A stretch of 64,000 nt of DNA from Vibrio sp. 16 (lineage in GTDB: Bacteria > Pseudomonadota > Gammaproteobacteria > Enterobacterales > Vibrionaceae). The translations under genes were made by a program, and so were the position numbers. This document shows, piece after piece, positions 1-19,580 of the stretch (its first letter is position 1; every line of letters starts with the position of its first letter). The stretch lies in NCBI RefSeq assembly GCF_963681195.1, contig NZ_OY808997.1:1116001-1180000 (forward strand). The letters run 5' to 3'. The notes beneath the pieces were generated by a model that saw only the letters and a program-made list of their open reading frames with translations, was not told the DNA's origin and made no database searches.

Positions 1-164
1 AGTGGAATGATCTTTGCGAACGAATCATCGGGATTGGATGCTTCTACATACGCGATAGTACTGCTGTTAAAGTGGCGGTTGAGCTTATTACTATCTAAGT
101 AAGAAGCGGCGCCACCAATGACAGCGCCCAACGCAACCGCGCCTATGATTATCTTATTGTTCAC
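1..164 (-). CDS. ToxS/VtrC-like membrane partner protein (partial, runs off left edge)
   Basis: Only the first 54 or so codons are inside the window. The GTG start at 164 is preceded by a GGGGTG ribosome-binding sequence and overlaps the end of the winged-helix regulator gene by 11 bases, so the two are probably translationally coupled. The visible product begins VNNKIII and continues as a glycine/alanine-rich hydrophobic segment (about residues 4-20), fitting a single N-terminal membrane anchor with a periplasmic body. The start matches that of the partner gene at 5273-5722 (VNKLLIG). Regulator-plus-small-partner pairs of this layout include ToxR/ToxS and VtrA/VtrC. Assignment to that class is inference from layout and topology. 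Confidence 0.6.
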   Translation of the reverse strand, partial: MNNKIIIGAVALGAVIGGAASYLDSNKLNRHFNSSTIAYVEASNPDDSFAKIIP

Positions 165-843
165 AGTGCACCCCATTACTCTCGCTTGCAAAACTCAAGG
201 AACGCCCATCAGCACTCACCAACAATGATAGGTCGTCAAATCTATACACAGTCACATCTTGATAATGGATGTTTGCCTGCTCTGTTTTAGGTGAAAACGT
301 ACACTGACTGTAGTGCAGTTGCTCGAAGCTGGTCGTTTGTATCGGCGAATGAAGCTTCTCGACGAGTGCATAGCTCAGCCCTGCACTGGCTAAGACCACC
401 CCAGCAACCAGCGCCCATTGCTTCATAGACGTGCGTTGTGAAGCTGGCTCAATCGCCAGCTCCTCAATCTGCCCGACGGCTGATTCGACCTGCTCCTCTT
501 GAGTCTCCTCAGCAGCATTCAACTCTTGGAAAGGTTCAATGCAAGCGTCAAACTCATAGCCAATTCCTCGCACCGTGCGTATCACCATGGCCGCTTTGTC
601 TTCCAGCGCTCGGCGGCAGTTTGAAATACAATGCAACAAACTGCTGCTCTCAACCACAATGCCACGCTTTAGCCAGACTTCATGCATGATTTCATCTTTA
701 GTTAGCGTTTCACCTTTGCGCTCAATCATGTAATTGAGCAGGGTGATTTCGTTAATCCCAATCGGATGACGAACATGAGTGTTCAGGCTCTGAATGAAAC
801 CCTGATCTGGATTGAGTAAATGGGTGCCATTAATCACCAACAT
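154..843 (-). CDS. ToxR-like winged-helix transmembrane regulator (copy A)
   Basis: The protein has 229 residues. Residues 1-98 form an OmpR/ToxR-type winged-helix DNA-binding domain ending in the typical RTVRGIGYEF motif. An acidic linker (about 100-138) is followed by one transmembrane helix (about 141-161) and a 68-residue periplasmic tail with two cysteines (C181, C227). This is the architecture of one-step membrane regulators such as ToxR, TcpP and VtrA. The gene starts 3 bases after the RND permease stop and overlaps the following small partner gene, so it should be co-transcribed with the pump. It is a paralogue of the regulator at 5715-6380: both share an HCxSNCR segment in the DNA-binding domain. 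The sensed signal is unknown; bile or envelope stress is a guess from VtrA and ToxR. Confidence 0.8.
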   Translation of the reverse strand: MLVINGTHLLNPDQGFIQSLNTHVRHPIGINEITLLNYMIERKGETLTKDEIMHEVWLKRGIVVESSSLLHCISNCRRALEDKAAMVIRTVRGIGYEFDACIEPFQELNAAEETQEEQVESAVGQIEELAIEPASQRTSMKQWALVAGVVLASAGLSYALVEKLHSPIQTTSFEQLHYSQCTFSPKTEQANIHYQDVTVYRFDDLSLLVSADGRSLSFASESNGVHCEQ

Positions 844-846
844 AAA

Positions 847-3800
847 TTACGCCTCCACCAGCTGAGATTTGTTTCGCATTTTTTCACGTACTTTGGCGAT
901 AGCCACATACGCCATTGGTACGATGAACAGGGAGAAGAAAGTACCCACAGTTAACCCGCCAACCAGTACTAAACCGATGTTCACTCGACCTAACGAGCCC
1001 GGGCCTTCGGCTAGTGCCAGTGGCAAAGAGCCGACTATCATGGTCAACGACGTCATCAAGATAGGACGCAGTCGAGAACGTGCACTCTCTACCGCCGCAT
1101 CGTAAACGCCTAAGCCTTCTTTACGCTTCAAGTTGGCAAACTCAACCATCAAAATGCCGTGTTTGGTCACCAAGCCAACCAGAGTTAGCAAGCCAATCTT
1201 CGAGTACAAGTTAATGCTTTGGCCAAACACACTCAGCGTTAGCACCGCGCCAACCAGACATAACGGTACGGTAATCATGATCACTAGAGGGTCAATGAAG
1301 CTTTCAAATTGAGCCGCCAGGATTAGGAAGATGAAAATCAAGGCTAAACCAAACAACATTTGCATCCCCGCCGACGACTCATTGAGCTCTTTCACCACGC
1401 CGTCATATTGGTAGCTTTGACCCGCTTTCAGCAGCGCCGGTAATTCAGTGTCAATAAAGGTCTGAATATCTGTTGCGCTGTAACCCGGAGCAAGGTCCGC
1501 GGTAATTTCTGCTGCATCTTTGCCCGCATACGTTTTGATGTTCGACTCTGCAGTCACAGGCTTGATCGAAACAAACTGAGACAACGGCAGTCGCTGGCCC
1601 GATTCAGAGCTGACGTACAGCTTATCGAGTACTTTAAAGTCACCTAATGCTTTGCGGTTAACCTGAACCTGAATGGGATAAGTAAAACCATCATCCGCTT
1701 GTAGATCAGCTGCTTTCACTGAACCAAGGAAAGTAGAAATCGCATTGGTCACATTGCCATAATCAACACCCGATAAAACAATCGCGTTACGGTCAATCGA
1801 CAAGTCAAAGCGCATTTGATCTCGGTGAGTTGAGTTATCTACATTGGTTAACCCTTCATAGCCTTCAAGCAACTCCACCACTTTCGCTGCCGTGTCTGAC
1901 AATTCATCTAAGTCACGGTTGACCGTTGTAACTTGCAAAATCAAATTGTCCGCCACATCAAGGTTGTCGGCAGAGCGCACAGAGAAGGAAGTCGTGTACG
2001 CTGAGATACTTTCTTTAACCTTAGCGATCATCTCATCAATGACCTCATCGGCACTTTGGTTACGCTCTTCCCAAGGTTTTAGTAGCACATGATTTGTTGG
2101 CGCACTTTCGATGTAGGCCAAGTTTGCTTCAATTTGTTGGTTGCCTTTAAATACCGCGTTGATCTGATCCGCGTTTTCGAGGTCGTACAGTCGACCTGCC
2201 CCCGCCGGGCCATGAGACGTGACTTCGATGAAACCAGTATCTTCTGTTGGCAGTAAAACTTTTGGCATGGTCCAGACTGCTACAATAGACAGCGCCGTTA
2301 ACAACGTTGTACCTGCGATAACCAGCATTGGGCGTTTAAACCAAGCACTGAGGAATGTCATGTACTTGTCTGTCATGGCATTTAGCTTTGTCTCAACCCA
2401 TTGAAACCATTTTGGTGACGTTGTCACTGATTTCAACATGTAAGCACTCATCATTGGTGACAACGTTAACGCAACAAAGCCAGAAATGATCACAGACGCC
2501 GCTAAGGTAAACGCAAATTGTTGGAACAGATCCGCCGTTAAGCCAGACATTAAACCGATAGGTAAATAGACCACTGCCAGAGTTAATGTCATCGCGATAA
2601 CTGGGAAGACGATCTCTTTACAGCTCTTAAGTGCTGCTTCAAACGGTGATAGCCCCTCTTCGATGTGACGATAACAGTTTTCTACTACCACAATTGCGTC
2701 GTCCACCACCAAGCCAATGGCTAGGATGATCGCCAGTATGGTCAATACGTTGATACTAAATCCAAGCATTGCCATTACCGCAAATACGCCAATGATACAC
2801 ACAGGAATAGTGATCAATGGAATGGCCGCGACACGCAGTGAGCCTAAGAACAACACCACAATCACAGAAACCAACACAATCGCTTCGACTAGAGTCATAA
2901 AACCTTGATCGATGGCTTCTTCAATAAAGTCCGCCTGGTTGTAGACCATCTTCATTTCAATGCCTTCAGGCACCTGCATGGTCTCCATGGTTGCTTTCAC
3001 TCGGTTAGCAACCGTCACTGGGTTTTCAGATTTAAGCGGTAGCACCTGAAGAGACATCGCCATGTTACCATCGACGCTAAGCATACTTGGCTCTAGGCTC
3101 TCTTCTCCCATTTGAATATCTGCTACGTCATTGACGCGGATGATGTTGCCATTGTCGACACGAATAACAAGGTCGCGCACGTCTTCAATTGAAGTGACTT
3201 GGTTAACCGGGTTGATTGAGAAATCACGGACTTCACCTTTGATCGTACCTGCAGTAAAGGTCGCGTTGTAAGTACTTAACGTGCCTACCACATCGGAAGC
3301 ACTGACGTTCAGTGCCGCCATACGCTCAGGCTGTAACCAAACGCGAATCGCTCGGTTTGAGCCACCATATGGCCCCCATACACCGCCGACACCCAGTACA
3401 TTCTTAAACTGAGGAGCCAATTGCTGGCTAATGAAATCAAACATTTCCTGCTTGTCCATCTCGCCGCGATTCACAAAGGTGATGATGTTACTTGGCATTG
3501 ACGTTTCCGATGAGTCATCCGTTACGGTTGGCTTATCTGTCATTGCCGGTGGAAAATCGGAAATACCGTCCACTTTGCTACGCAAGTTGTTCATAAGACT
3601 CGCGTATTCAACGTCACTGACCCCATCTTCGAACTGAATTTTCAGAGAGCAACTGCCCTCCTGACAATCCGTCGTCATGGTTTTAATCTTATCTAGCCCC
3701 GTCACCGCGGTGATCAGCTCATCAGCCACGTTCTGCGACATAAACTCTGCACTCGCACCGGTAATCGAAGCGTTCACTGTTGCTGATGCTGTTTGACGCT

Positions 3801-3915
3801 CAGGGAAATACTGAATCGCCAACTTTTGATAAGAGACAATGCCCAGTAGGACAATTGCAATGCTCAGCACGGATGCGAGCACCGGATGTTTAATGCATAT
3901 CTCAGGCAGCTTCAT
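847..3915 (-). CDS. RND-family efflux permease (HAE1/AcrB type)
   Basis: The 1022-residue protein has the RND layout: an N-terminal helix (about 10-30), a large periplasmic loop, helices from about 340, a second large loop (about 560-840) and the last helix set. The proton-relay pair GLVVDDA is at 401-407 (D405, D406), as in AcrB. It would be the inner-membrane proton-driven pump of a tripartite multidrug exporter. Its start overlaps the adaptor gene by 14 bases. No outer-membrane channel gene is adjacent, so it probably uses a TolC encoded elsewhere. It is shorter than AcrB (1049), as are several Vibrio Vme/Vex pumps; I cannot say which one it corresponds to. Confidence 0.93.
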   Translation of the reverse strand: MKLPEICIKHPVLASVLSIAIVLLGIVSYQKLAIQYFPERQTASATVNASITGASAEFMSQNVADELITAVTGLDKIKTMTTDCQEGSCSLKIQFEDGVSDVEYASLMNNLRSKVDGISDFPPAMTDKPTVTDDSSETSMPSNIITFVNRGEMDKQEMFDFISQQLAPQFKNVLGVGGVWGPYGGSNRAIRVWLQPERMAALNVSASDVVGTLSTYNATFTAGTIKGEVRDFSINPVNQVTSIEDVRDLVIRVDNGNIIRVNDVADIQMGEESLEPSMLSVDGNMAMSLQVLPLKSENPVTVANRVKATMETMQVPEGIEMKMVYNQADFIEEAIDQGFMTLVEAIVLVSVIVVLFLGSLRVAAIPLITIPVCIIGVFAVMAMLGFSINVLTILAIILAIGLVVDDAIVVVENCYRHIEEGLSPFEAALKSCKEIVFPVIAMTLTLAVVYLPIGLMSGLTADLFQQFAFTLAASVIISGFVALTLSPMMSAYMLKSVTTSPKWFQWVETKLNAMTDKYMTFLSAWFKRPMLVIAGTTLLTALSIVAVWTMPKVLLPTEDTGFIEVTSHGPAGAGRLYDLENADQINAVFKGNQQIEANLAYIESAPTNHVLLKPWEERNQSADEVIDEMIAKVKESISAYTTSFSVRSADNLDVADNLILQVTTVNRDLDELSDTAAKVVELLEGYEGLTNVDNSTHRDQMRFDLSIDRNAIVLSGVDYGNVTNAISTFLGSVKAADLQADDGFTYPIQVQVNRKALGDFKVLDKLYVSSESGQRLPLSQFVSIKPVTAESNIKTYAGKDAAEITADLAPGYSATDIQTFIDTELPALLKAGQSYQYDGVVKELNESSAGMQMLFGLALIFIFLILAAQFESFIDPLVIMITVPLCLVGAVLTLSVFGQSINLYSKIGLLTLVGLVTKHGILMVEFANLKRKEGLGVYDAAVESARSRLRPILMTSLTMIVGSLPLALAEGPGSLGRVNIGLVLVGGLTVGTFFSLFIVPMAYVAIAKVREKMRNKSQLVEA

Positions 3916-5089
3916 TCGTTACCTCCTCAGATTGCTCATTGGTTGGTTTTACTTCTTTACTCACGTCTTTGTTTACCGGCTGCTTCACTTCCTCGCTTGG
4001 TGCGGGTTTAGGTGTAGCAGGTAAAGTTCGCGAAGGTAGCGTCACTTTTGACACAGAGTTTTGCACCGCTACAGAAGAGTGCTCATTTAGATTTTGACGG
4101 CCAGTGACCACCACAATCTCACCCAATTCCAAGCCCGACTTAATCGTGACATAGCCATTATTTGTATTATCGCCCAGCTCAACCGAGCGCTTAACTGCTT
4201 TGTCATTTTCAATCACCCAGACAAAACGCTGGTCACCATTAGTATCAACAGCGGTCTGTGACACCACCAACTCTGCACTGTCTTTACCAACGGTTTGTGA
4301 CACCTTGGCAAACATACCTGGCACCAGTTGGTTATTTTGATTCTCTAAATGGGCATGAATTTCAACGCGGCCAGAGCTTTCATCGACCAAAGGCGCAATG
4401 TAGTTCACTTTGCCAACAAAAGATTGGTTAGGATAAGCGTCAACCGAAATCGATACTGGTTGGCCAAGCTGCGCTTTACCGACTTCGTTTTGGCTGATTG
4501 AGTAGTGAACTTCTACAGGATCGAGCTTGATTAAGCTGACCAACGCCGTCGCAGCCTCAACTCGGCTGCCTACTGAGTGGGTAAAATTAGTCAGTTGGCC
4601 GTTAAACGGAGCCACCAATTGGTAGTTTTGCAGATCGGTTTTCTTTTGACGGAAGTCGGCGCGAGCCAGATTGGCTTGTTGCTTAAGCTCTTCGACATCT
4701 TGTGCAGACATCGAATCAGGTTGCTTTTTCAATAATGCGAGCACGCGATCCAGCTTGGATTCTGCCAGCGCTAATGAGCTTTTGGCTTTATCCAATTCTG
4801 CTCGTGCTTGTGCATCATCTAGCTGAGCGATCAAATCGCCTTTGTTAACTTGGTCGCCATCTTCAAAATTCAGGGCTTTAAGTTTTTCACCCGCACTGAA
4901 CGTTAGCGCCGCTGAATCGGTTGCTTTTACTTTCCCTACTTCCTCAATCGAAGATTGATGGACTTGTTTCGCCACCACTTCTACCGTTACAGGGATAGCA
5001 GGTTGAGTCTCTTCGGCAGAAACGTGTGTTGCAAAAAGTGCACTTACTGCGCAGAAAACCGACAGTGGAGAATTTAGGTACTGAGTCAT
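3902..5089 (-). CDS. RND efflux periplasmic adaptor (membrane fusion protein)
   Basis: The 395-residue product begins with a cleavable signal peptide (about 1-25, ending THVSA). It has the adaptor fold: a lipoyl half-motif near GDQVNKGDLIAQLD (about 78-91), an alpha-helical hairpin (about 95-160), the second lipoyl half, then beta-barrel and membrane-proximal domains. The C-terminal 60 residues are a low-complexity Lys/Glu/Pro tail not needed by the family. It would couple the permease to an outer-membrane channel. It is the first gene of the pump operon and overlaps the permease by 14 bases. The 183 bases before it contain the terminator of the upstream partner gene, so it should have its own promoter. 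Confidence 0.92.
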   Translation of the reverse strand: MTQYLNSPLSVFCAVSALFATHVSAEETQPAIPVTVEVVAKQVHQSSIEEVGKVKATDSAALTFSAGEKLKALNFEDGDQVNKGDLIAQLDDAQARAELDKAKSSLALAESKLDRVLALLKKQPDSMSAQDVEELKQQANLARADFRQKKTDLQNYQLVAPFNGQLTNFTHSVGSRVEAATALVSLIKLDPVEVHYSISQNEVGKAQLGQPVSISVDAYPNQSFVGKVNYIAPLVDESSGRVEIHAHLENQNNQLVPGMFAKVSQTVGKDSAELVVSQTAVDTNGDQRFVWVIENDKAVKRSVELGDNTNNGYVTIKSGLELGEIVVVTGRQNLNEHSSVAVQNSVSKVTLPSRTLPATPKPAPSEEVKQPVNKDVSKEVKPTNEQSEEVTNEAA

Positions 5090-5232
5090 AGCTTGTCTCT
5101 AATTGATGAAACTTGCGGTTGTTATACCTAAGATTTCTCCTACAAAGTTAACGCTTTGTCAGCGAAAGGATTTTTAATAATGAGCGATTATAAAAAAATA
5201 TCAAACCTTTGATTTTATTGAATTTAAAGCCA

Positions 5233-5255
5233 TAAAAAAGCCAGTAAAACTGGCT
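5233..5255 (-). terminator. Rho-independent terminator behind the partner gene 5273-5722
   Basis: Read on the minus strand, AGCCAG - TTTTA - CTGGCT is followed by a run of six T. It lies 18 bases after the stop of the small partner gene and separates the regulator pair from the efflux operon. Confidence 0.75.
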
Positions 5256-5272
5256 CTTAAAGTCCCCTATGA

Positions 5273-5722
5273 TTAAGGGGTAACTTCGCTAAACAGATAA
5301 GAGTATCGAGGCGCGACCATGATCATCTGCTTATCAGAGAGTGGAATGATGGTTAACCCTTCCATAGAGTGCATACCTCGCTGCGAGAACATCATCTCAA
5401 TCAGGCTTAGCTTTTTACCTTCTGGAATCACCTTCTCCGATGAGGTCGGCGTTAACGACAAACCGTGGTAATCAAACACATAATTGCCCGATGCGTTATA
5501 GCCCACTTTTTTGTCGGTAAAGAAATACGCTTCATACTGCCCCGAGCGTTTAAGTGTGATGGTCGCGTGCATGTTTAACTGTTCAGTCTTCTGTTTAGTC
5601 GGGACTAAAATCGAGGTTTTGCTGACGATATTAAGGCTAACCGTCGGCGAAGAGATGTACGCCGCCATTGCGCCAACGGCCGCACCTGAGACTAAACTCA
5701 ACCCAATAAGAAGCTTATTCAC
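5273..5722 (-). CDS. ToxS/VtrC-like membrane partner protein (copy B)
   Basis: The product has 149 residues if the GTG at 5722 is used. That start is chosen because GGAGGT lies 6 bases upstream, it overlaps the regulator gene by 8 bases, and it aligns with the GTG start of the partial copy at 1-164. An N-terminal hydrophobic anchor (about 4-24, glycine/alanine rich) is followed by a periplasmic domain of about 125 residues rich in beta-type sequence. This is the size and topology of ToxS and VtrC, which pair with the periplasmic domain of the cognate regulator; in VtrA/VtrC the pair forms a lipocalin-like bile-salt site. Function here is inferred from position and architecture, since identity to ToxS cannot be judged by eye. 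Confidence 0.6.
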   Translation of the reverse strand: MNKLLIGLSLVSGAAVGAMAAYISSPTVSLNIVSKTSILVPTKQKTEQLNMHATITLKRSGQYEAYFFTDKKVGYNASGNYVFDYHGLSLTPTSSEKVIPEGKKLSLIEMMFSQRGMHSMEGLTIIPLSDKQMIMVAPRYSYLFSEVTP

Positions 5723-6380
5723 ATTGCACCTCCACTTCATCAACAAGGTAGCTGATTGAATGGCCATCTGCGTCAACCAGTATCACCTGATTATTGGTCG
5801 TGAACATGCGCACGTTGGTCATCACAATGGGTTTATCTTGCGTATTGGCTTGGATAGTACAACCAATAAATCGTTGTTCTTGATAGTCAGCTTGCACCCA
5901 AGGAGAACGAGTAAAGGAAAAAAGGGCAAAACTGACGACGGCGGCAAGCGTGAATAGTGAAATACAGATCAGGTTACGCTTCTTGATCTGAGACTCTTCA
6001 GCTTCAACAATCTGAGGTTGGAGGATTGCTGGCTGGGGTGCCAGCTCTGGTACTTCTTCACGTTCTTCTTCGCTTGAAACTTGGCCATTAAATTGATAAC
6101 CAACTCCGCGAACCGTGGTGATGATTTCTCCGCTGTCACCTATCGCCTTACGACAGTTAGAGACACAGTGAAGCAGACTACTCTCTTCAACGATCACTCC
6201 TTTTTGGTGCCATACGTATTCCAATAGTTCTAATTTAGACAAAGGTCTGTGAGGATTATCCACCATGTACTGCAGCAAAGCGGTTTCATTGGTGCCAAGG
6301 GACGCCTTATGTCCCGTGGAAAGGTTCTCTATGAATCCCGCCAACAAATTAAGACGATAAATTTGATTAATTATGAGCAT
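5715..6380 (-). CDS. ToxR-like winged-helix transmembrane regulator (copy B)
   Basis: The protein has 221 residues. An N-terminal winged-helix domain (about 1-98, ending TTVRGVGYQF) is followed by a Glu/Pro-rich linker (about 100-132), one transmembrane helix (about 136-156) and a periplasmic tail with two cysteines (C174, C220) at positions equivalent to those of the paralogue at 154-843. The two regulators share start, domain spacing and the HCxSNCRxAxxD stretch, so they are duplicates. The gene heads a two-gene unit with its partner and sits directly upstream of the efflux adaptor on the same strand, which makes the pump an obvious candidate target. Confidence 0.8.
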   Translation of the reverse strand: MLIINQIYRLNLLAGFIENLSTGHKASLGTNETALLQYMVDNPHRPLSKLELLEYVWHQKGVIVEESSLLHCVSNCRKAIGDSGEIITTVRGVGYQFNGQVSSEEEREEVPELAPQPAILQPQIVEAEESQIKKRNLICISLFTLAAVVSFALFSFTRSPWVQADYQEQRFIGCTIQANTQDKPIVMTNVRMFTTNNQVILVDADGHSISYLVDEVEVQCE

Positions 6381-6467
6381 GATGATCGATTAGGTAAGCG
6401 ATTTAGTGTGCCTCTTACCCTAGCGCAATTTGCTAAAAAATAAAGACCGTATTTGGCAAGTATTCAG

Positions 6468-7760
6468 TTAACGTTCGGCTATCTGAAGTTCGTTGTCTCG
6501 AATGAACAAAACTTTACCATCTGAGTAATAATCGTGCTCTTCATCAAGGCTAGTCGGCAACGCGGTCGCATTAAGTGACACTTGGCGTAAACCCGGTAAC
6601 TGCATAACTTGCAGTGCCAGTTTATCTCGTTCGACATCAACATTGGGGTCAATGCTGTGCAAAACAGTGACAATGCCTGAGTAAGGCGTAAGTTGCAGGC
6701 CATTGTCATAGCTCAGCGCACCAACCCAAAACAGCGTCTCTGATTGAGGATCAACCCCTCCCTTCCACCAACGAATATGGCTACGTTTTAGCAAGTTTCC
6801 TGGCAGTTGAAACGCCATCTCTTGTGGCACCCCGTTCCAAAATAGATCCGAGACTGGCGGCGTATTCTGCTTGAGCAAAGATAGATAGTCCTCCAACTCT
6901 AGATCATTACGTGAGAAGGTTTGGTTCTCAATCCAACCCAAATCAAGCATTATTTGCCTTGGGTTCTCGCCATAGTAGATAACATTGACCGCTTGGGCAT
7001 CGAACACCGATGACCGCCCGGGGTACGCTTTTAGCTCTAACTCACTAAGCTCAACATACGCAATATCATTCGATTTTTCTGCTGTTTTCTCGACCTGCAA
7101 AAAGTCGTCTGAGTAGAGAAAAAAGTGCAGGTAGTTCGCAAGCAGGGCTGACCCCATGAGAACAGCAAAAGACGCACTCACTTTATAGCGCCAGTTGAAC
7201 GCCCTCGCGACGAGATAAAACAGCCCTGTTGCAGCCAAAGCGTACAGAGACAGTTTGTGCTCTATCAGAAACGTCTTTGCTTCATTTAATAGTGGAAACT
7301 TCTCGACGCCATACGCCAACAAGTAGCCCCAGAAAACGAACTGACCCACGCCCAGTAATAGCCCAATAGATGAGTAAAACGAAAAGCGCTTCCAGCCTAT
7401 CTTCTGTGTTCCGGCCATAAACGGAACAACCCAAGCAACAGGCCCAAGAAGGCGAGCAAACATCAAAATCGCGTTACCTTGTGTTGCCATTAAATGACGG
7501 CAACGCGCTATAGGTCTTTTCGTTTTAGGCTGCCAGTTAATCAGTTTTCTCTGGGCGGGTTTGCCCAATCGACGGCCAATAAAGTAACTGGCTTGATCTC
7601 CAATCAACCCACCCAACAGTACTGCCAACACACCAGTAACGATGCCTTGATGCAATTGGTACCCAGCGGCCAATAGAAATGGCTCACCGGGTACAAATAA
7701 ATTGGGGCCAATTAAAGCATCCATTAACGCCCCAAAGAATAGGCTGCCTACACCTTCCAT
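6468..7760 (-). CDS. DedA-family membrane protein with C-terminal LssY-like domain
   Basis: The 430-residue product has a DedA/SNARE-associated domain in its first 165 residues, with the FVPGEPFLLAAG and GDQASYFIGRRLG motifs and the arginine-containing FARLLGPVAWVVPFMAG segment. Three or four further helices run to about residue 215. The last 200 residues form a soluble LssY_C-type domain (from about VNVIYYGENPRQ). DedA proteins act in undecaprenyl-phosphate or phospholipid flipping and membrane-potential homeostasis; fusions to LssY_C are known in proteobacteria, but the role of that domain is unclear. It lies 17 bases after a glycosyltransferase gene on the same strand, suggesting an envelope function for both. 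Confidence 0.85.
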   Translation of the reverse strand: MEGVGSLFFGALMDALIGPNLFVPGEPFLLAAGYQLHQGIVTGVLAVLLGGLIGDQASYFIGRRLGKPAQRKLINWQPKTKRPIARCRHLMATQGNAILMFARLLGPVAWVVPFMAGTQKIGWKRFSFYSSIGLLLGVGQFVFWGYLLAYGVEKFPLLNEAKTFLIEHKLSLYALAATGLFYLVARAFNWRYKVSASFAVLMGSALLANYLHFFLYSDDFLQVEKTAEKSNDIAYVELSELELKAYPGRSSVFDAQAVNVIYYGENPRQIMLDLGWIENQTFSRNDLELEDYLSLLKQNTPPVSDLFWNGVPQEMAFQLPGNLLKRSHIRWWKGGVDPQSETLFWVGALSYDNGLQLTPYSGIVTVLHSIDPNVDVERDKLALQVMQLPGLRQVSLNATALPTSLDEEHDYYSDGKVLFIRDNELQIAER

Positions 7761-7777
7761 TTCATCACCACTAACGC

Positions 7778-8506
7778 TTATTGCTCTTTATAGTGGCCGA
7801 ACTGGTAGTTCATCTCGTTTTTACGCATTTCCCCAAAGATGAATCGACGAACATTGGCAGATAAATAGGTGTAACCCATTTTAAAAACACCATCTTGATC
7901 CAACCTGCGCGGGTCAAAGCGGAAGGTAAGGTTTAGAAAGCGGAATCGCCAAGTTTGACTGGCACGTTTGACGTAGTCGCAGTCTTCGCATAAAACAATC
8001 TCTTCATCAAACCCTCCGATTTCTTTATGCACGCGCTTAGTCGAGAAGATACAAGCCCCCACTGCCGTCGGAAAAAAGAACTGAGTCAGGTATAAGCCAA
8101 CGTTAAACAAACCGTAACCCAGCTTGTGAATCAGTGGTAAGCCGTTAGCCCCCATAAACACACCCGCGACCTCAAGCTTCTTCTCTTCAAGTTGCATCAT
8201 CGCTTCTTGCAGGAAATTAGCTCTTAGCTGTACATCGGCATCAAGGAATAGAATACGTTGATACTGCGCCAACTCTGCTCCCGTATTACGGCCTAAGCTG
8301 GTACCGCGACCTGCCATTCTATGGACGGTTAGCTTCGGCAAGGCATTGCTGTAAGCTTTAGCCACATCGCACGTGGCGTCATCACTGTTTGAATCAACGA
8401 CAATGACTTCAAAGTTTTGATACGTTTGCTGACTTAGGTTTTCAAGTAAACGACCAATGCGTTTCTCTTCATTGAGTGTGATAATGACAATACTTAACTG
8501 TTCCAT
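7778..8506 (-). CDS. Family 2 glycosyltransferase
   Basis: The 242-residue protein has a GT-A fold. An N-terminal IVIITLNEE strand (6-14), the VVDSNSDD nucleotide-binding segment (36-43) and FLDADVQL (87-94), where the DxD motif binds metal and sugar nucleotide, are all visible. A hydrophobic stretch near residues 130-150 may sit in the membrane. It would transfer an activated sugar to a lipid or polysaccharide acceptor; the acceptor cannot be read from the sequence. It forms a short operon with the downstream DedA-LssY gene. Confidence 0.88.
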   Translation of the reverse strand: MEQLSIVIITLNEEKRIGRLLENLSQQTYQNFEVIVVDSNSDDATCDVAKAYSNALPKLTVHRMAGRGTSLGRNTGAELAQYQRILFLDADVQLRANFLQEAMMQLEEKKLEVAGVFMGANGLPLIHKLGYGLFNVGLYLTQFFFPTAVGACIFSTKRVHKEIGGFDEEIVLCEDCDYVKRASQTWRFRFLNLTFRFDPRRLDQDGVFKMGYTYLSANVRRFIFGEMRKNEMNYQFGHYKEQ

Positions 8507-9257: not shown

Positions 9258-9308
9258 CCCCGATGCTACCAACATCGGGGCTTCACCGTTTTTGATCCCT
9301 CAAAAACG
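9258..9308 (+). terminator. rplY transcription terminator region (two adjacent hairpins)
   Basis: CCCCGATG (9258-9265), a 7-base loop CTACCAA and CATCGGGG (9273-9280) make a perfect 8-bp stem. A second symmetric hairpin, CGTTTTTGA-TCCC-TCAAAAACG (9287-9308), provides the T-run. The direct repeat that recurs at 17592 starts exactly at the loop, so only the left arm is unique to rplY. Confidence 0.75.
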
Positions 9309-9314
9309 CTCTCA
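9266..9314 (+). repeat. Left copy of 49-bp direct repeat A (candidate attL)
   Basis: The 49 bases starting CTACCAACATCGGGG match 17592-17640 at 46 of 49 positions. Weaker similarity continues for about 100 bases to a shared GTGTGGACGA (9390-9397 and about 17716). It begins inside the loop of the rplY terminator. The enclosed 8.3 kb carries two tyrosine recombinases and an excisionase gene, as expected of an integrated element. Confidence 0.65.
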
Positions 9315-9401
9315 ATTCTCTTCAACTTACTGAAAATTCGCCACTTTACCCAACCCCACAATAACCACATCATTTATGGGTGGATTAAGTGTGGACGAAT
9401 A

Positions 9402-9419
9402 GTGGACTTATACAGTAGT
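9402..9419 (+). repeat. Left copy of 18-bp direct repeat B
   Basis: GTGGACTTATACAGTAGT differs by one base from 17439-17456. It lies just inside repeat A, while its partner lies just upstream of the xis-int pair. It may be the core of a second attachment-site pair, or a recombinase arm site. Confidence 0.45.
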
Positions 9420-9593
9420 TTCTCTCTCAACTATCTTAGACCCATTTTCACCACGGCTCAAATCACTGCCCTACTTCCCCTACTTTATTCTTTACTCTAA
9501 AACATGCCTGAAAGAGCCTCTAAACGGCTTCCGAGTAAATCCTACATCAGTGTTATACTTCCGATTAAATTGCTCACTAGTGAGGCTACAGAA

Positions 9594-9728
9594 ATGGATA
9601 AGAAGACTTTGACCGAGCAAGAGCTACTCGAAGGATTAGATGCTTATACTGCACATGCAGATGAGTTGGCGGAACTGGTTGAGGGTGAGATGGATTTAGA
9701 TGAAGTTGAAGAAGATTGCAGCCACTAA
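9594..9728 (+). CDS. Small acidic protein of unknown function
   Basis: The 44-residue product starts MDKKTLTEQELLEGLD at an ATG preceded by GAGG 8 bases upstream; the longer upstream frame has no ribosome-binding site. It is highly acidic in its second half and has a THxADELA-like stretch (about TAHADELAEL). I do not recognise it. Short acidic proteins of this kind can be antitoxin tails, but no toxin gene is adjacent. It is the first gene inside the direct-repeat-bounded region. Confidence 0.5.
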   Translation: MDKKTLTEQELLEGLDAYTAHADELAELVEGEMDLDEVEEDCSH

Positions 9729-9776
9729 TAAAGTGATCATTGGCAGCTGCTTATCTTTAAATTGACTTAAGGGACT

Positions 9777-9802
9777 AACTCATTTTTGGATATAAATGAG
9801 TT
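9777..9802 (+). terminator. Inverted repeat behind the small acidic gene
   Basis: AACTCATTT (9777-9785) and AAATGAGTT (9794-9802) form a perfect 9-bp stem with an 8-base loop. It lies 49 bases after the stop codon. The T-run is weak, so termination is uncertain. Confidence 0.35.
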
Positions 9803-9876
9803 TCATGAACCTTAACATTAGTGATTCATGAATAACTTTTTATAAGGAAAATTTGCCAATTAATACGCCTTTGTGT

Positions 9877-9904
9877 AGTGCGCACTTTGTCTGTATATAT
9901 TCTA
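9877..9904 (+). other. dif-like (XerC/XerD-type) motif, possible filamentous-phage attachment remnant
   Basis: AGTGCGCACTTTGTCTGTAT and the following AT-rich bases resemble the XerC half (AGTGCGCA) and spacing of Vibrio dif and of the attP sites of dif-integrating filamentous phages. The XerD half is poorly matched. It lies about 100 bases before an interrupted phage-like gene. Confidence 0.25.
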
Positions 9905-10002
9905 TAGCGTGCATCCAGTCAATTCAGTTCAACCTATTGTATTTATCCGTGAAACATCGAGAAATAAGTAATAATTACATTTTTCGATAATTAGAATGCC
10001 AA

Positions 10003-10317
10003 ATGACCAAGGAAGAGGTCGCTGAACTGTGTTTTAAAAGTGTAAGAACCATCACTGGTTGGGATGAGTAGAAACCGATACCGCCAGAATGTAAAAGGAT
10101 CATGAGAATGGCAAAAGGACGAGAGCTAAGTGCAAGTGAGGATTAGGAGCAGTTTCAAATGCACTATGACCGTATGGAATTACCAACAAGGAAAACTGTT
10201 TCGCCTCAACAAATCTTAGCGGGGATTACTCTATTTAGTATTCAACCTGAACTAGAAATAAACACATCGAGTCATTTGATAAATGATTGCACGTTCAATC
10301 GCGAAGATTATTTATAA
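10003..10317 (+). pseudogene. Phage-like regulatory gene interrupted by two amber codons
   Basis: One frame of 104 codons runs from ATG 10003 to TAA 10315 with protein-like content (MTKEEVAELCFKSVRT, then KPIPPEC, then QQILAGITLF). It is broken by TAG at 10069 and TAG at 10144. The first part looks like a small helix-turn-helix domain, and the KPIPPEC segment recalls small vibriophage proteins of the DUF3653 kind (low-certainty recollection). Both lesions are single-base changes to TAG with no frameshift, so decay is recent or the stops are read through in a suppressor background. The bidirectional terminator at 10331 follows. Confidence 0.5.
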
Positions 10318-10330
10318 GTAGTTTGGACCG

Positions 10331-10358
10331 AAAAAAGGCTTCCAAGGAAGCCTTTTTA
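10331..10358. terminator. Bidirectional Rho-independent terminator
   Basis: AAAAAAGGCTTCC-AA-GGAAGCCTTTTT is near symmetric with an A-run on one side and a T-run on the other. It lies between the phage-like pseudogene (+) and the end of the SIR2-like gene (-) and can serve both. Confidence 0.8.
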
Positions 10359-10372
10359 TAATATTTACTTAA

Positions 10373-12856
10373 CTAATTCGTTCCATTTTTCTCAGGCCAC
10401 TTACCGGTCAGGTAGTACTTCATAAGATTTGCAAGAGTAGTCTGGATTCTCGAGTTTTCAACCAAGTCACTATTATCGCTAATTCTAGTGTGATATTGCT
10501 TCGCGACGATTTTAGCTTCGTTAACATGACCAAAATTATCTAACACTTTTACGTGCCCTTCTGACAGAGTGATAATTGGATAACGGTCGGAGGCACCTAC
10601 TTGCGATCTTATATTATTACTATTCAAACGATTCAGAACTTGTTCTGCTTCTTCTAGATAAGCCATAGCAATTGTTTCATCTGTTTCTTGACAAGCTAGT
10701 ATTATGCGTTGCTGCGCTAATGCATGTTCAATTTGAGGTGAATCCTTGAATGCTTGGTTAGCAATACGGAGCTTTTCATAGGCAGCCTCATTAAGGCCAA
10801 AAGAACGTAGTGCCAATCCATACTGCATCAGAAAAAGCCCCTCATTTTCGAATGCTTTTTCAAACGATTCATAGATCGATAGGACCTTTGTCTTATCATC
10901 CTTAAACGCTTTCCCAAGTGCCTTCGCATTTACCAAATGCTTATAGATAGTGGACTCATTGCGGCTTATATTTTTAACAATTGGGAAATGGTACACGGAA
11001 AAGGACTTAATATAAGCATGGTAGATTCTATATAGCTCTTCGCTTGATATATATAACTTAAATAGGCGCTCAATATAAACACGATGGCGAGTTGTAACGG
11101 AACCATTAATGTACCTAACTATACCATCCATTTGAGAAGCTAAATAATGAACGTCCGAGTTTAAACCAAGATATGACATCGCACGCGTTAAAGTTGCTTC
11201 GCTTGCTGGTACACGTTGTGTTGTCGCTAGTCCAGCTAACAATAGTAATGCCTGCTCGGAATCACAGGTAATACTCTTATAGTCATTTTGAATTATTTTG
11301 TTGTAGCCTTCGCCTGATGTAGCTTCTATTAAACCAATTAAAAGTTGTTTCTTAGACTTTTGTAAGAGCTCTTTCTTCCTATCTCTTTTCGACATTTGAG
11401 CTAAGCGAGTCCAGTTGCCATAAATCTCTAACTTCTCGAGAATACTGTCAGCATCGGAGTTTTGCAGCTCAGATACGTCAGCTTCAAATGGTCGATAGGT
11501 GCTTAAATGATCTTTACCTCTAGACTTCCAAATTTTAGGGTTTTCGGCACTAACGAAGATCGCTTTAGTTGACTTAGAACCTTTAATAATTGTCGCTATT
11601 TGCGGCGCGAGGTCGGAAATGCGGTCAACAAAAAGATAGTATGGTTTTGGGTTTCGAAAATCTAACTCTCTGACTAAATCTACTAAATTATCTTTATATT
11701 CATCGATATAGTAGACGTTACGGTCGCCTTCATCGGCAATTTTTAAAGCTATCTGTTTTAAAGCTGTAGTCTTACCACATCCCGCAAAGCCAAGCATAAG
11801 AAAGACGTCCAACGGATTTGCTTTTTTATTGGCCAGATAATCATCAAAAAATAACTTAGTATTTTGAAGATATGCAGGAACTGCGTCCATAATGTCAAAC
11901 CACGTAGGTTTAAAACCCTTATAGAAGTCACGTATTTTAGACATAGATGGTGGTCTGTTCATTAAAGCTAGAGAAGACCTGCTCACAGGAGTTACCCCAG
12001 AAAACAATTCAAGCTTTTTATTATCTCTATTGGACTCTTCAATCAACTCCGGTCGAGTGTGTCTAACGATATCTTCACTTGTTGGAATTTTTGGAAACTC
12101 AGCTTTTAGCCAAGAAACAAAGTCACCCAGCGTCCCTGGGATATGGTGAATGTTTGAAGATTCTAAACTGGTTTTTTGAATACTGGAAAGGCTAGGAATC
12201 AATAGGTAGCTTTTTAAATCACTTACTCCAGTTCGCGCTTTATACTTTTGTATTTGATGAAAAAACAATGGCTCTTTGAGTTTGGTTCCAATAAAAATAA
12301 AAGTGTATTTGTGATAATCGCGACCTAACTCACTATACCAGAGCGGCTCCTTTGCAGCACCTTCGCCATATTCTTGTGGCGAAAAGATAAAGCCATCTTT
12401 TGTGCGTGATATGTCGCCATTAAGTTTCACTAGATCAAGGGTTTTGTAGAATTGGTCTACTTCTGTAATATCATCATCACGTTGTTTAACATTAAAAAAT
12501 CTATTAGATTGATTTAACGCTGCTTTTTCAAATGCGTCGTCAATATTTAGAGTGTAAACCCTAAAGAATGGAAACTTCACTAATTCGTTGTATTCAATCG
12601 AAGGTGTACAATGCTTAAATTGTCTTTCTAAGATAGTATCTACTTGCGAACCAAGCTTTGCTCTTGCGGCAGAATAAACTTCAGATAGATCTTCTTCGCC
12701 TAGTTCTTCACCCATCTCTTCTGCAAGTATTTTGGCTAGTTCCCAACCTAAAGGAATATCTTTGTTTAGCTGATTCCTACAACCTCTAGATGCGCCAGCT
12801 CCTAGTAACAACACTAGACGGCCATTTAACAAAGCTGTTTTAATGTGAGAATTCAT
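10373..12856 (-). CDS. SIR2-like / P-loop NTPase (STAND-type) putative antiphage protein
   Basis: The 827-residue protein has an N-terminal SIR2-like domain (about 1-250): LLLGAGASRG (17-25), YTLNIDD (101-107, equivalent to the TxNxD motif) and KLNGDI (144-149). A P-loop NTPase follows, with Walker A GFAGCGKTT (356-364) and a Walker-B-like YLFVDR (407-412). The C-terminal 250 residues are helical and TPR-like. SIR2-NTPase-repeat proteins (SIR2-STAND, Avs5-like, Dsr) are known to stop phage by NAD depletion. Where most SIR2-type domains have HG, this one has NG (N146), so catalysis may differ. The start has AAGGTG 5 bases upstream. It stands alone between a terminator and a 420-base gap inside the mobile region. 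Confidence 0.75.
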   Translation of the reverse strand: MNSHIKTALLNGRLVLLLGAGASRGCRNQLNKDIPLGWELAKILAEEMGEELGEEDLSEVYSAARAKLGSQVDTILERQFKHCTPSIEYNELVKFPFFRVYTLNIDDAFEKAALNQSNRFFNVKQRDDDITEVDQFYKTLDLVKLNGDISRTKDGFIFSPQEYGEGAAKEPLWYSELGRDYHKYTFIFIGTKLKEPLFFHQIQKYKARTGVSDLKSYLLIPSLSSIQKTSLESSNIHHIPGTLGDFVSWLKAEFPKIPTSEDIVRHTRPELIEESNRDNKKLELFSGVTPVSRSSLALMNRPPSMSKIRDFYKGFKPTWFDIMDAVPAYLQNTKLFFDDYLANKKANPLDVFLMLGFAGCGKTTALKQIALKIADEGDRNVYYIDEYKDNLVDLVRELDFRNPKPYYLFVDRISDLAPQIATIIKGSKSTKAIFVSAENPKIWKSRGKDHLSTYRPFEADVSELQNSDADSILEKLEIYGNWTRLAQMSKRDRKKELLQKSKKQLLIGLIEATSGEGYNKIIQNDYKSITCDSEQALLLLAGLATTQRVPASEATLTRAMSYLGLNSDVHYLASQMDGIVRYINGSVTTRHRVYIERLFKLYISSEELYRIYHAYIKSFSVYHFPIVKNISRNESTIYKHLVNAKALGKAFKDDKTKVLSIYESFEKAFENEGLFLMQYGLALRSFGLNEAAYEKLRIANQAFKDSPQIEHALAQQRIILACQETDETIAMAYLEEAEQVLNRLNSNNIRSQVGASDRYPIITLSEGHVKVLDNFGHVNEAKIVAKQYHTRISDNSDLVENSRIQTTLANLMKYYLTGKWPEKNGTN

Positions 12857-13225
12857 TTTACACCTTTAATTATAATTATATCAATTACTTATAAATCATC
12901 TATCACTAATGTACACCGTATGGTTAGAAACAACAACATCCAGTATGTTGATAAACCTCTAGAATGTCATGAAATTTAGCATTAGCTACCTGAATATATA
13001 AGGGCGAGCCTAGTATCTCTCTCGAATTTACTCCCCGTGATACAACACGGGGATTCACAACGAACATTATTAGAAGAATGGATAATTTTTAGTCGGACAA
13101 AAGCTCATGTACAGGATGGGAGTGAGTAAAGGTCTAAGCTACTTTGGGGCAAGAACAAATTAGAACAACTTGGATAAGCAGCTAAAATGTTCTGACTTTG
13201 AATGTTTTGCTCCTACGAAAACGAC

Positions 13226-13252
13226 AAAAGTGTTCTAACCTAGAACACTTTT
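13226..13252. terminator. Hairpin terminator behind recombinase gene 13282-14145
   Basis: AAAAGTGTTCT-AACCT-AGAACACTTTT is a perfect 11-bp symmetric stem with flanking T/A runs. It lies 30 bases after the recombinase stop on the minus strand. The rest of the 12857-13281 gap shows no coding content. Confidence 0.7.
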
Positions 13253-13281
13253 AGATCAGTTTTTGGGATCTGACCGTTAAT

Positions 13282-14145
13282 TCAACGCCCTAAATAAACC
13301 GCAGTCACTTCCTCTCGGCTATGCCCTAACTCTTCGCTAATGATCATTCTGGCTTCATAGTCACGCTGTTTGTCTGCACCACTCAACCCTTTCGTTGACG
13401 GGCCTCCCGCAGCAGGAGCGCTATTCCCCGTCAACTCAAGGTATCGCTGGTGCGCATACGCATGTCTCAGGCCATGTGCACGATCCAGCCCCATCTTGAT
13501 ACACGCTCGTTCATATCTACCTTGGTGAGTTTTATACCTATCCTCTTTCGGTATAAGTGAGCCATCCCCCACCCACTTTTTTATTGAGTCGATGAGTTCA
13601 CGCTGTGCTTGGGTTCTGATTGGTACGGTTCGGGGTCTACCGCCCTTCGTTTTCGTCAAAGCTAAGTAATCACCTTTATCTGAAAAGCGCAGTATTATCT
13701 TCATGCATTCTTCACGGCGAAGACCAAAAGCGGCTTGTAATCTGAAACTCGCTTCTAAATAGCGGTTATTGAGCCTAGATAATTGTTCATTTGATATGTG
13801 ACGGGACCGATTGATGTTTGTAACGTAGTGGCGCTTTTCAATACCGAGAGATGTATTGCTAGCTGGTATAAGGCCAGGCTTACCAATTTTTTCTGATAGC
13901 CATCTTAGGTGGGACATTCGATTCTTGATTGTACTTGCCGACAAACCTTGTGATTGCCACAGGTTTAAGAGCTTATCGATATGGCGCCGACCTAAGTTTC
14001 GCACTTGGAGCTTTCTTACATGCATCTCTTGTAACTGCTTATCCATCAGCTTTAGCGTTTTCTTGCGTTCCGCTTGTGTCGATTTCGAACCATCTGGATT
14101 TCGACGCAATATTTGTAATACCTGATAAGAGAAATCTGAAGCCAT
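13282..14145 (-). CDS. Tyrosine recombinase / integrase (Phage_int_N-Integrase_1 type)
   Basis: The 287-residue protein has an N-terminal SAM-like DNA-binding domain (about 5-110) and a catalytic domain with the tyrosine-recombinase set: R143 (FGLRREE), K167 (TKGGRPR), H224-x-x-R227 (HGLRH), H275 (LGHS) and the nucleophile Y284 (AVYLG). All catalytic residues are present, so it should be active. GGAGAAG precedes the ATG. This compact integrase class is common on Vibrio islands. It is a different family from the recombinase at 15815-17062, so the region carries two independent integration modules. Confidence 0.88.
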   Translation of the reverse strand: MASDFSYQVLQILRRNPDGSKSTQAERKKTLKLMDKQLQEMHVRKLQVRNLGRRHIDKLLNLWQSQGLSASTIKNRMSHLRWLSEKIGKPGLIPASNTSLGIEKRHYVTNINRSRHISNEQLSRLNNRYLEASFRLQAAFGLRREECMKIILRFSDKGDYLALTKTKGGRPRTVPIRTQAQRELIDSIKKWVGDGSLIPKEDRYKTHQGRYERACIKMGLDRAHGLRHAYAHQRYLELTGNSAPAAGGPSTKGLSGADKQRDYEARMIISEELGHSREEVTAVYLGR

Positions 14146-14170
14146 CTTTTACTTCTCCGTTAGAAGATGA

Positions 14171-14200
14171 AAAATAAAGAGCCGAGGCCATCGGCTCTTT
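14171..14200 (-). terminator. Terminator upstream of the recombinase gene
   Basis: On the minus strand AAAGAGCCGA-TGGCC-TCGGCTCTTT runs into ATTTTTC. It would stop transcripts arriving from the structured non-coding stretch before they enter the recombinase gene, which starts 26 bases further on. Confidence 0.6.
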
Positions 14201-14259
14201 CCATTTTGAAGCTGCGATTCTTATTTCACGGGTACAGTAGTTAAGTATCAATGCGATTT

Positions 14260-14860
14260 CAGATTAGTGTTATTGCTCCCGTTCATTTCGACAGAACGCC
14301 TATCACTTCGGTGAAGTAATTAGGTATTAGAGCGAGACTACTGCGCGGCAAAAATTCCGTACAATTGACTGACTGTAAGCCACGAACAATTGTTTTAATT
14401 CCCAGAAGCCCGTAAGGCTGGTGAGATAAGAATGCGCTGGTAAATTAAGTGGTTTCTTCTACGAGTAATCTGTGCAGCGATGGCTGCGTATTTAATTCCA
14501 TTTCATTGTGTGCGATGAGTGCTGAGTATTCAAATTTAGTGACGCTCTCAGCGTCAGTTTTAGTTCGGCGTCACGCGCTGATAATGCTCAGGTTCGGTCC
14601 GACAGGTAAGTAATGGCGGGCGCTATCCGTCCTGTCACTCCATGCTTGTAGTGACAGGCCTAGTAACCCGAATACATCTTCTAAAGGCGAGAGCCTGTCT
14701 AAATTCAATAACTCGATAACTTGCAGGAGATCTAACTGACGTCTAAATTTTGTACACCTTTAATGGGAATTTTTCTTTCGTCTATCGCAGTGATAGTAAA
14801 TACAGCCATTAAAGCAAAGCCTATTTGGGGCAAAGTATTTATCTAATTTGTTATGGAGGC
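14260..14860. other. Structured non-coding region (possible replication origin or regulatory RNA)
   Basis: About 600 bases without a convincing gene hold several clean inverted repeats: GACGC-TCTCA-GCGTC (14541-14555), CCTGTCACT/AGTGACAGG (14631-14639 and 14650-14658) and a nearby GGCGTCACGCGC element. The GACAGG/CCTGTC sequence recurs at 14610 and 14631. Such clusters are seen at phage or plasmid origins and in structured RNAs. The ParB-like gene follows immediately. Confidence 0.4.
14432..14518 (+). pseudogene. Short hydrophobic peptide frame broken by an early stop
   Basis: ATG CGC TGG TAA is followed in the same frame by 24 codons encoding a hydrophobic segment (IKWFLLRVICAAMAAYLIPF) and a TGA at 14516. 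GGTGAG lies before the ATG. It could be a decayed small membrane peptide of the mobile element or chance. Confidence 0.25.
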
Positions 14861-14863
14861 TTT

Positions 14864-15718
14864 ATGAAAGCACTGACAACTAAGAAAACCGAACTTCCAG
14901 AAGTTATTTACATGACACCCTCAGAATGGATGGAGCTCGACGATTGCTCAAGGCAACGAAACACTCCCAAGCATGCTAAAGCTGCAGTAGTTAGACATTT
15001 GTCAGACAGTCACAATACACATGCAGTAGTAAACGCAGCTAGGTGGCCTGACGGGAGTTTATCAAAACTAGACGGCCATACCAGAGCCTTCTTATGGGCC
15101 AGCGGTCAGCTCGCAGCACCGGAGCAACTATTAGTGGTTGTGTGGAACGTTCACTCAAAAGAAGAAGCTGAAAACTACTACTTAACATTTGATAATAGAT
15201 CTGCCTCTGAGTTGAATAATCAGCTTCTATTCGGGACCTTAAGAAAGTATGGCGTAGAATTACAATCATCACTGCTTATGCAAGGTGGCCTCTACGCTAG
15301 TTTACAGCACATCTATGGAGTCCGTGATATGGGCATCAACCTTCCAACAGAAATTGTTGAAACGATCGGTGCTATTGATAGGAAAAATTACAACAAAATC
15401 AAAACTGTTCCGATGTGTTCAGGGTTTATGGCAGCAATGCTCGCTACTGTTTATAGGGATGAAGACAACGCCTTCCACTTTTGGGACCGTTACTATGACG
15501 ATGGAGGAAAAAAAGATGGACGACATTGGGATGGAGTCCATGGACTAAGTGTAATTATCGCTAGAGAAACAAATAACGGTACGGGAAGAGATCAAGCACG
15601 GATTCGAATGCGTAGAGCTTTGAACTGCTATGAGGCCTTCAGAAACAACAAGATGCTAGGCAAAAACGTAACAGAATTACGCATCACAAAATTTGTTCCG
15701 AATGCTCAACACTATTAG
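14864..15718 (+). CDS. ParB/Srx-fold-like protein of unknown function
   Basis: The ATG at 14864 is chosen because GGAGG lies 4 bases before it; the product has 284 residues. The first third contains a segment like the ParB-type nuclease fold: CSRQRNTPKHAK (about 33-44), a predicted helix, then SLSKLDGHTRAFLWASGQ (about 65-82), where DGHTR is equivalent to the ParB GxxR/DGHRR motif. The remainder is unfamiliar, with a tryptophan/aspartate-rich stretch near WDRYYDDGG. ParB-like proteins on mobile elements act in partition, regulation or DNA nicking; none can be chosen here. The structured region lies upstream, and no terminator with a good T-run follows. Confidence 0.5.
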   Translation: MKALTTKKTELPEVIYMTPSEWMELDDCSRQRNTPKHAKAAVVRHLSDSHNTHAVVNAARWPDGSLSKLDGHTRAFLWASGQLAAPEQLLVVVWNVHSKEEAENYYLTFDNRSASELNNQLLFGTLRKYGVELQSSLLMQGGLYASLQHIYGVRDMGINLPTEIVETIGAIDRKNYNKIKTVPMCSGFMAAMLATVYRDEDNAFHFWDRYYDDGGKKDGRHWDGVHGLSVIIARETNNGTGRDQARIRMRRALNCYEAFRNNKMLGKNVTELRITKFVPNAQHY

Positions 15719-15733
15719 AAGTAATAACACTAG

Positions 15734-15759
15734 ACAATCCACATGCCTGTGTGGATTGT
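15734..15759. repeat. Perfect 10-bp inverted repeat
   Basis: ACAATCCACA (15734-15743) and TGTGGATTGT (15750-15759) form a stem with a 6-base loop between the convergent ParB-like and integrase genes. There is no T-run. It may be a weak terminator or a recombinase binding site on the 3' side of int. Confidence 0.4.
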
Positions 15760-15814
15760 TCACATACCGACAGGGGTTCTCCGTCTAATAATTACCCACA
15801 AAATCAATTTAAAT

Positions 15815-17062: not shown

Positions 17063-17272
17063 TTATGACTCTAAGAATCTTAGGAGCTCACTCACCCTGT
17101 CTGCAGGGTTCCCTATTTCGTCGTCAACACAGACTAAATATCGGCCCGTTGGCGTTCTAGTGCCCTCAAGCTTGCCGTGTTTAATCCAATTTATGATGGT
17201 GGTAGTGCATATCCCTGAATCAGGATAAAACTCATCAATAAATTGTCTAGGTCTGATTTTACGTGTCGCCAT
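17063..17272 (-). CDS. Excisionase-like small DNA-binding protein
   Basis: The 69-residue protein has a winged-helix/MerR-like recognition segment (ICTTTIINWIKHGKLEG, about residues 20-36) followed by a wing (TPTGRYLV), the pattern of lambda-type Xis/Exc proteins. These bend DNA at attachment sites and steer the integrase toward excision. Its TAA directly abuts the integrase ATG, so the two are translated from one message. Assignment rests on size, motif and position. Confidence 0.75.
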   Translation of the reverse strand: MATRKIRPRQFIDEFYPDSGICTTTIINWIKHGKLEGTRTPTGRYLVCVDDEIGNPADRVSELLRFLES

Positions 17273-17438
17273 GTCGTTCTCCTTACCTTTTTCACTACAT
17301 GAAAATTAAGATTTTTCATCTACTGGTAGAAAAACTATGCACGATTTATTCAGTGATATTCTATTTGCGCAGCAATTAAAAAAAATGTTTCCCGAAGCGT
17401 AAAATGATTCATCGAATCGATTTCAAGCCCACTTTAAG

Positions 17439-17456
17439 GTGGACTAATACAGTAGT
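17439..17456 (+). repeat. Right copy of 18-bp direct repeat B
   Basis: GTGGACTAATACAGTAGT is identical to 9402-9419 except at one base. It lies 167 bases upstream of the excisionase start. The region 17273-17686 holds no gene; it contains this repeat, repeat A and AT-rich DNA that may carry the xis promoter. Confidence 0.45.
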
Positions 17457-17591
17457 ACCAAGTTGCTAATGCATTGATTTAATTTCACTATTTTATTGGC
17501 CTTTTTAACCGTTTTTTAGGCCAGCTAGAGCTTAACCACCAGCTATAAACACATGAAATTATTACAAATAAACACAAGACAGCGAAGATTA

Positions 17592-17978: not shown

Positions 17979-17985
17979 GGATTAT

Positions 17986-19573: not shown

Positions 19574-19580
19574 GGCTTAT

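Follow-up and report, generated by a model that had tools for sequence, protein, structure and literature searches.

Two paralogous ToxR/VtrA-type regulator pairs bracket an RND efflux pump in Vibrio

The window, that is the whole stretch of DNA analysed, comprised 64,000 nucleotides (G000:C1:1116001-1180000), and the genus-mates of the source genome are named Vibrio. Its minus strand carried a cassette in the 5'->3' order R2-P2, MFP, RND permease and R1-P1, in which R is a regulator, P its partner and MFP the periplasmic adaptor. R2 (5715..6380, minus strand) encoded a ToxR-type one-pass membrane transcription factor of 221 aa (Pfam Trans_reg_C, 4.4e-15), and P2 (5273..5722, minus strand) encoded a partner of 149 aa, which had a GTG start and overlapped R2 by 8 nt. 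The RND periplasmic adaptor MFP (3902..5089, minus strand; 395 aa) matched Pfam HlyD_D23 (2.5e-23) and scored above the cut-off of TIGR01730, and it was followed by the RND permease (847..3915, minus strand; 1022 aa; Pfam ACR_tran, 8.9e-238). The paralogous regulator R1 (154..843, minus strand; 229 aa; Pfam Trans_reg_C, 1.4e-13) lay 3 nt past the permease, and this gap from 847 to 843 was the close attachment of the second pair that an earlier note on this DNA had pointed out. P1, the partner of R1, started with GTG and overlapped R1 by 11 nt; only its start was in the window (1..164, minus strand), and the entire gene (L011:11712-12164) encoded 150 aa. An HK/RR two-component pair converged on P1 from the opposite side.

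Both an AcrB-type permease and a HlyD-type adaptor were present according to Pfam and NCBIfam, which identified the two genes as an RND pump, and the permease scored under the NCBIfam cut-offs for permease subfamilies. No gene for an outer-membrane factor, an optional feature of RND pumps, was found in the cassette or among the next genes, and we assumed that a TolC shared with other systems serves the pump.

R1 and R2 both carried an OmpR/PhoB-type (CadC/ToxR-like) DNA-binding domain (Pfam Trans_reg_C), and a profile of 20 regulators matched the DNA-binding domain of ToxR at 3.5e-19. Hydropathy indicated one membrane-length hydrophobic segment in each of R1, R2, P1, and P2. The regulators had two periplasmic cysteines (181/227 in R1, 174/220 in R2), which were invariant in a 56-row alignment, and P1 and P2 were cysteine-free. 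In the AlphaFold model of R2 (pLDDT 82.1, pTM 0.46), the DNA-binding domain matched ToxR-DNA structures, and a helix at 129-157 was followed by five strands. The matches listed by the fold search with this model were all to the DNA-binding domain, and none of them bore on the periplasmic part. PHROGs placed the regulators in one family of unknown function and had no match for P1 or P2. The idea that R1 or R2 is the genome's own ToxR was rejected because a separate 288-aa ToxR-like gene and a ToxS-like neighbour, both named from sequence, were located elsewhere in the same genome (L003).

The predicted structure of P2 consisted of an N-terminal membrane helix and an eight-stranded, lipocalin-like periplasmic barrel. 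The five best entries in its fold search were ToxS and VtrC, with an identity of 6-7% to VtrA/VtrC in the aligned barrel. The assignment of the pairs to the ToxR/VtrA type in the earlier note thus held for both proteins: the DNA-binding domain was ToxR-like by sequence and fold, and the P2 model was closest to ToxS and VtrC and had the lipocalin-like fold proposed for the partner. Profile comparison showed that P1 is homologous to P2 (prob. 99.0, E 8.8e-18), and a barrel in P1 would follow by homology. P2 had no Pfam match, neither partner had an NCBIfam match, and a sequence search of the PDB with the partner profile gave no match.

In all 59 readable pairs, the GTG start of the partner lay within the 3' end of the regulator gene (a readable partner was missing in 10 of 69 regulator rows, six of them at the locus end). 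The overlap was 8 nt in 57 pairs and 11 nt in two (R1-P1 of the source genome and of G033), as measured by a script that favoured overlaps of ~8 nt and could hide other starts. A Shine-Dalgarno-like string was found in 57 of the 59 pairs. In the 8-nt overlap, the partner start was located within the Cys-Glu-stop codons of the regulator. The conserved final Cys codon of the regulator overlapped the partner GTG (e.g., window 5715-5722 and 154-164), so that protein sequence and start site constrain each other. The layout shared by the two pairs was therefore as previously claimed, with GTG start, gene overlap, one hydrophobic segment per protein and two periplasmic cysteines per regulator. The VtrAC-like family features given in the accessible part of PMC9214523 were used for comparison. 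Several of them were found here: the regulator had a single membrane helix and a C-terminal periplasmic domain, and the partner, with an N-terminal membrane helix, was adjacent, downstream, on the same strand and overlapping.

An R2 orthologue (48% identity or more) was detected in 19 of the 227 genomes of the genus surveyed, and R1 lay within about 6.5 kb of it in all 19. The pump was located between the pairs (type A) in 14 of these genomes, among them V. coralliilyticus, V. neptunius, V. bivalvicida, and V. europaeus. Twelve type A loci were intact; R1 was truncated and P1 absent in G131, and the R2 and RND frames were broken in G144. The flanking of the pump by two paralogous membrane regulator pairs was confirmed, and its recurrence in 14 of 227 genomes speaks for more than chance. 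The five other genomes, such as V. pectenicida and V. ostreicida, possessed the tandem R2-P2-R1-P1 without the pump (type B), and no pump orthologue was found in them at E 1e-250. These five species kept the pairs and their promoter without the pump, which indicated that the regulators have another role at least there.

In a third arrangement (type C), there was only one related pair, Rv-Pv; it was divergent from genes like volA (phospholipase) and fadL (fatty-acid porin), which were mostly followed by MFP-RND. The volA-fadL genes stood beside Rv in all 27 Vibrio genomes with Rv, including V. splendidus, V. lentus, and V. fortis; frames were broken in volA of G093 and G215 and in fadL of G018. 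The orthologous pump was present in 25 of the 27 (the permease of G177 was in two frames) and absent in G125 and G155. Four further genomes contained only Rv fragments. A pump orthologue at E 1e-250 was present in 48 genomes: 14 of type A, 29 carrying the type C pump (Rv being intact in 25), and five with more distant orthologues, which had no pair within the 15-16 kb read. No genome with both R1/R2 and Rv was found among the matches listed. Four loci (L132, L133, L134, and L135) represented decaying type C loci, in which Rv, volA or fadL was broken or missing and the MFP and RND frames were open. A third paralogue, X, occurred away from pump and volA in four genomes (L079:8948-10070, L080:8543-9677, L081:8691-9374, and L083:8055-9096). 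Its partner was found in L079, L080, and L083 and not in L081, and its neighbours in L080 were a periplasmic binding protein and a dienelactone-hydrolase-like protein.

Of 197 genomes of the family (Vibrio included), 26 were matched by the regulator profile at 1e-25, and three of these belonged to another genus. In all three, the pair was divergent from volA-fadL (fadL of G282 was in two frames). The reverse did not hold: volA-fadL was found without an R-P pair in all nine type A genomes checked (G144 left out), and volA without a pair in all seven genomes of other genera checked (the fragment G348 left out), with six of these seven only 35-39% identical to the query. This indicated that volA and fadL can do without these regulators. 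In the window's own genome, volA gave no match at the thresholds used. The VolA-like protein tested scored under the NCBIfam cut-off for VolA/Pla-1.

R1, R2, and Rv each formed one clade (R1 support 100/99), and R1 and R2 were sisters at 98/92 in a tree rooted on the other genus, which suggested a duplication within this lineage. X was closer than Rv to R1/R2 (92/75), and the order outward was X and then Rv. In the partner tree, P1 (100/99) and Pv (91/82) each formed a group, as did P2 with weaker support (77/86). Long-branch warnings accompanied all of these trees, and the root was an assumed one; should it be correct, the position beside volA-fadL is probably the older state. The trees and the profile comparison agreed with the expected paralogy of R1/R2 and of P1/P2. 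However, the "nearly identical" sensors of the earlier note were not found: R1 and R2 shared about 33% identity (BLAST 32-33%), P1 and P2 25%, and the periplasmic parts of the regulators only 15 of 61 aligned residues.

Type B was nested inside type A in the R2 tree and in the tree of flanking genes, at two places in the latter. This pattern suggests that the pump was lost twice while both pairs stayed in place. The R1 tree disagreed: in it, all R1 other than four of the five type B sequences grouped together (96/93 in one tree, only 85/65 in another), with those four beside them. Judging from the trees together, loss of the pump appeared likelier than its late insertion.

The region between P2 and MFP (5090..5272, minus strand; type A) and that between P2 and R1 in type B shared the same conserved block, recognisable in all 19 genomes. 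The mean identity of this promoter block between the two types was 0.63, compared with 0.43 for shuffled and realigned type B sequences (max 0.48, 10 trials), 0.52 for the terminator part and 0.48 for the region upstream of R2. In type B, the conserved promoter is thus predicted to serve R1-P1. In type A, R1 follows the permease by only 3 nt, so that R1-P1 most likely forms the tail of the pump transcript, barring an unseen promoter inside RND. A terminator-like hairpin with a T-run was seen by eye after P2 (5233..5255, minus strand) and in many other type A sequences, and it suggests that R2-P2 is a separate transcription unit. The terminator scanner did not list this hairpin in the window, and neither its results nor those of the promoter scan rose above chance level. 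A palindrome, ATCAAACCTTTGAT (5200..5213, strand not assigned; ATCAA-N4-TTGAT), was present in nine of the 19 MFP/R1 promoters, compared with a mean of 0.1 after shuffling, in sequences that are related. It was absent from the other ten and from all 18 R2 upstream regions, and none was printed for the 27 Rv upstream regions; we took it only as a lead to a candidate operator. The ToxR-box-like TNAAA-N5-TNAAA occurred in 12 of 19 MFP/R1 promoters and in seven of 18 R2 upstream regions (shuffle means 2.2 and 0.7), the sequences being related and AT-rich. A search for a motif common to the MFP, R2, and Rv promoters gave only AT-rich strings with two mismatches.

The cassette was compared with two close genomes. 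Strain G179, labelled as the same species, matched at 96-99% identity across about 9 kb on the HK side; it lacked about 7 kb (window -377 to 6624), where about 217 bp stood instead. Strain G033, labelled as another species, was 96.6-99.4% identical over window 1-6000, 86% over 6001-6500, and 74-89% from -12000 to -1000, with an unmatched gap. The best match to the cassette was thus in another species, and the cassette was absent from G179, which suggested that it is probably mobile as one piece. Had G179 simply lost it, the contrast in identity would still need explaining; the simplest reading is that the cassette was transferred with both pairs and the pump. Along window 6001-8500, identity to G033 (85-98%) and to G179 (88-96%) switched, a sign of recombination at the cassette edge, with the 5' half of R2 included. 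Further on, window 9294-20795 held a strain-specific insert of about 11.5 kb, compared with about 1.5 kb in G179; it included an 827-aa ORF (10373-12856, minus strand) with only a weak PADLOC match (mads_8, 4.6e-4). Because the contig of G033 ended, the comparison with G033 reached only a short way into the insert.

We propose, with somewhat better than even confidence, that the duplicated co-component pairs of the VtrAC/ToxRS kind not only bracket the RND pump but most likely control it. Each partner would line a periplasmic pocket that its regulator completes, and an amphipathic lipid (a fatty acid, a lysophospholipid or a bile-like compound) would alter the pair. R2-P2, expressed from its own transcription unit, would act on the MFP promoter. 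R1-P1 would rise along with the pump and either feed back on the MFP promoter or relay the signal to other genes. VolA and FadL take part in exogenous lipid uptake, as described in the accessible text of PMC12208996. Fatty acids affect TcpPH (PMC11323476, in the part available), and the structurally solved members of the fold class bind bile (PMC10624426 and PMC13042144, from the sections at hand). A lipid ligand would fit the fold class, the effects on TcpPH, and the neighbourhood of the related pairs: no intact Rv was found apart from volA-fadL-like genes, and most came with the orthologous pump as well. Bile is a possible signal; the volA-fadL neighbours point to lipids. More tentatively, a lipid-dedicated branch of co-component systems may couple VolA/FadL harvest to RND export of amphiphiles that are in surplus or toxic, and in one Vibrio lineage it may have become, by duplication around the pump, a mobile cassette with two sensors and feedback, able to lose the pump and retain the sensors. 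We regard this wider scenario as plausible without favouring it.

Three other explanations were considered. The first is that only R2-P2 drives the pump, and that the co-transcribed R1-P1 has a different regulon and is no second sensor of the pump. The partners conserve different residues: 38 columns were invariant in a set of 20 P2 proteins and 24 in a set of 18 P1 proteins, and only four were in the joint alignment of 67 partners (P1, P2, Pv, X). The pump-less species also keep R1-P1 behind the same promoter, as would fit a cascade in which R2 acts on R1 and R1 on other genes. However, the DNA-binding halves were the best conserved parts of R1 and R2 (46 of 100 residues identical in the window), so that a shared operator is possible, and we consider this explanation rather unlikely, although it is the strongest of the three.

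The second takes up the heteropairs of the earlier note: R1 would pair with R2 (or P1 with P2) in functional complexes, through which two signals are integrated. R1 accompanied R2 in 19 of 19 genomes, and ChiS/TfoS offer a precedent of membrane regulators in contact at one promoter (PMC11856585, in the part consulted). The divergence of the periplasmic parts (15 of 61) argues against it. The distance correlations did not single out crossed pairs either: mirror-tree partial correlations in 17 genomes were 0.93 for R1-P1, 0.86 for R1-P2, 0.79 for R2-P2 and 0.80 for R2-P1, which did not discriminate between cognate and crossed pairs. Such heteropairs seem improbable. The third explanation, that the pairs are mobile regulators with targets elsewhere and enclose the pump only incidentally, is just as improbable. 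In its favour are the five of 19 genomes with both pairs and no pump and the X paralogues in four genomes; against it, the orthologous pump stands in an operon beside Rv-Pv in 25 of 27 genomes and the promoter block is recognisable in all 19.

Literature searches, covering titles and the beginnings of abstracts for up to 20 papers per search, showed no paper that places such pairs around an RND pump or next to volA-fadL. The co-component family and neighbouring pairs, as in Salmonella, are known; the pairs around an RND pump and beside volA-fadL appear to be new within the literature searched. ToxR and TcpP are two membrane regulators acting at one promoter; however, neither they nor ChiS/TfoS are paralogous pairs that flank their own target. 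ChiS/TfoS resemble the present case as two membrane regulators at one promoter (PMC11856585, same part). Salmonella STM0341/0342 and STM0344/0345 are two neighbouring candidate co-component pairs, similar to those of the pump-less Vibrio; in contrast, no pump is reported for them and one partner is modelled as a half barrel (PMC9214523, in the part available). The same part describes co-component systems mainly for virulence genes, and it proposes that relatives of ToxS/VtrC are lipid sensors (PMC9214523). The volA-fadL neighbourhood provides a concrete ligand class, which makes this proposal directly testable. VolA/FadL relate to our locus through the pair Rv-Pv, which stands divergent from volA-fadL-like genes, although those genes are missing from the window's cassette. 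VtrA/VtrC, the bile receptor of T3SS2 in V. parahaemolyticus, is encoded in a type III island, whereas the pairs described here are two, paralogous, and linked to an RND pump. These loci would extend co-component systems to efflux and lipid scavenging in marine vibrios, and their natural variants (the bracketed pump, the pump-less tandem, and the single pair with volA-fadL and pump) offer comparisons for how membrane regulators acquire targets.
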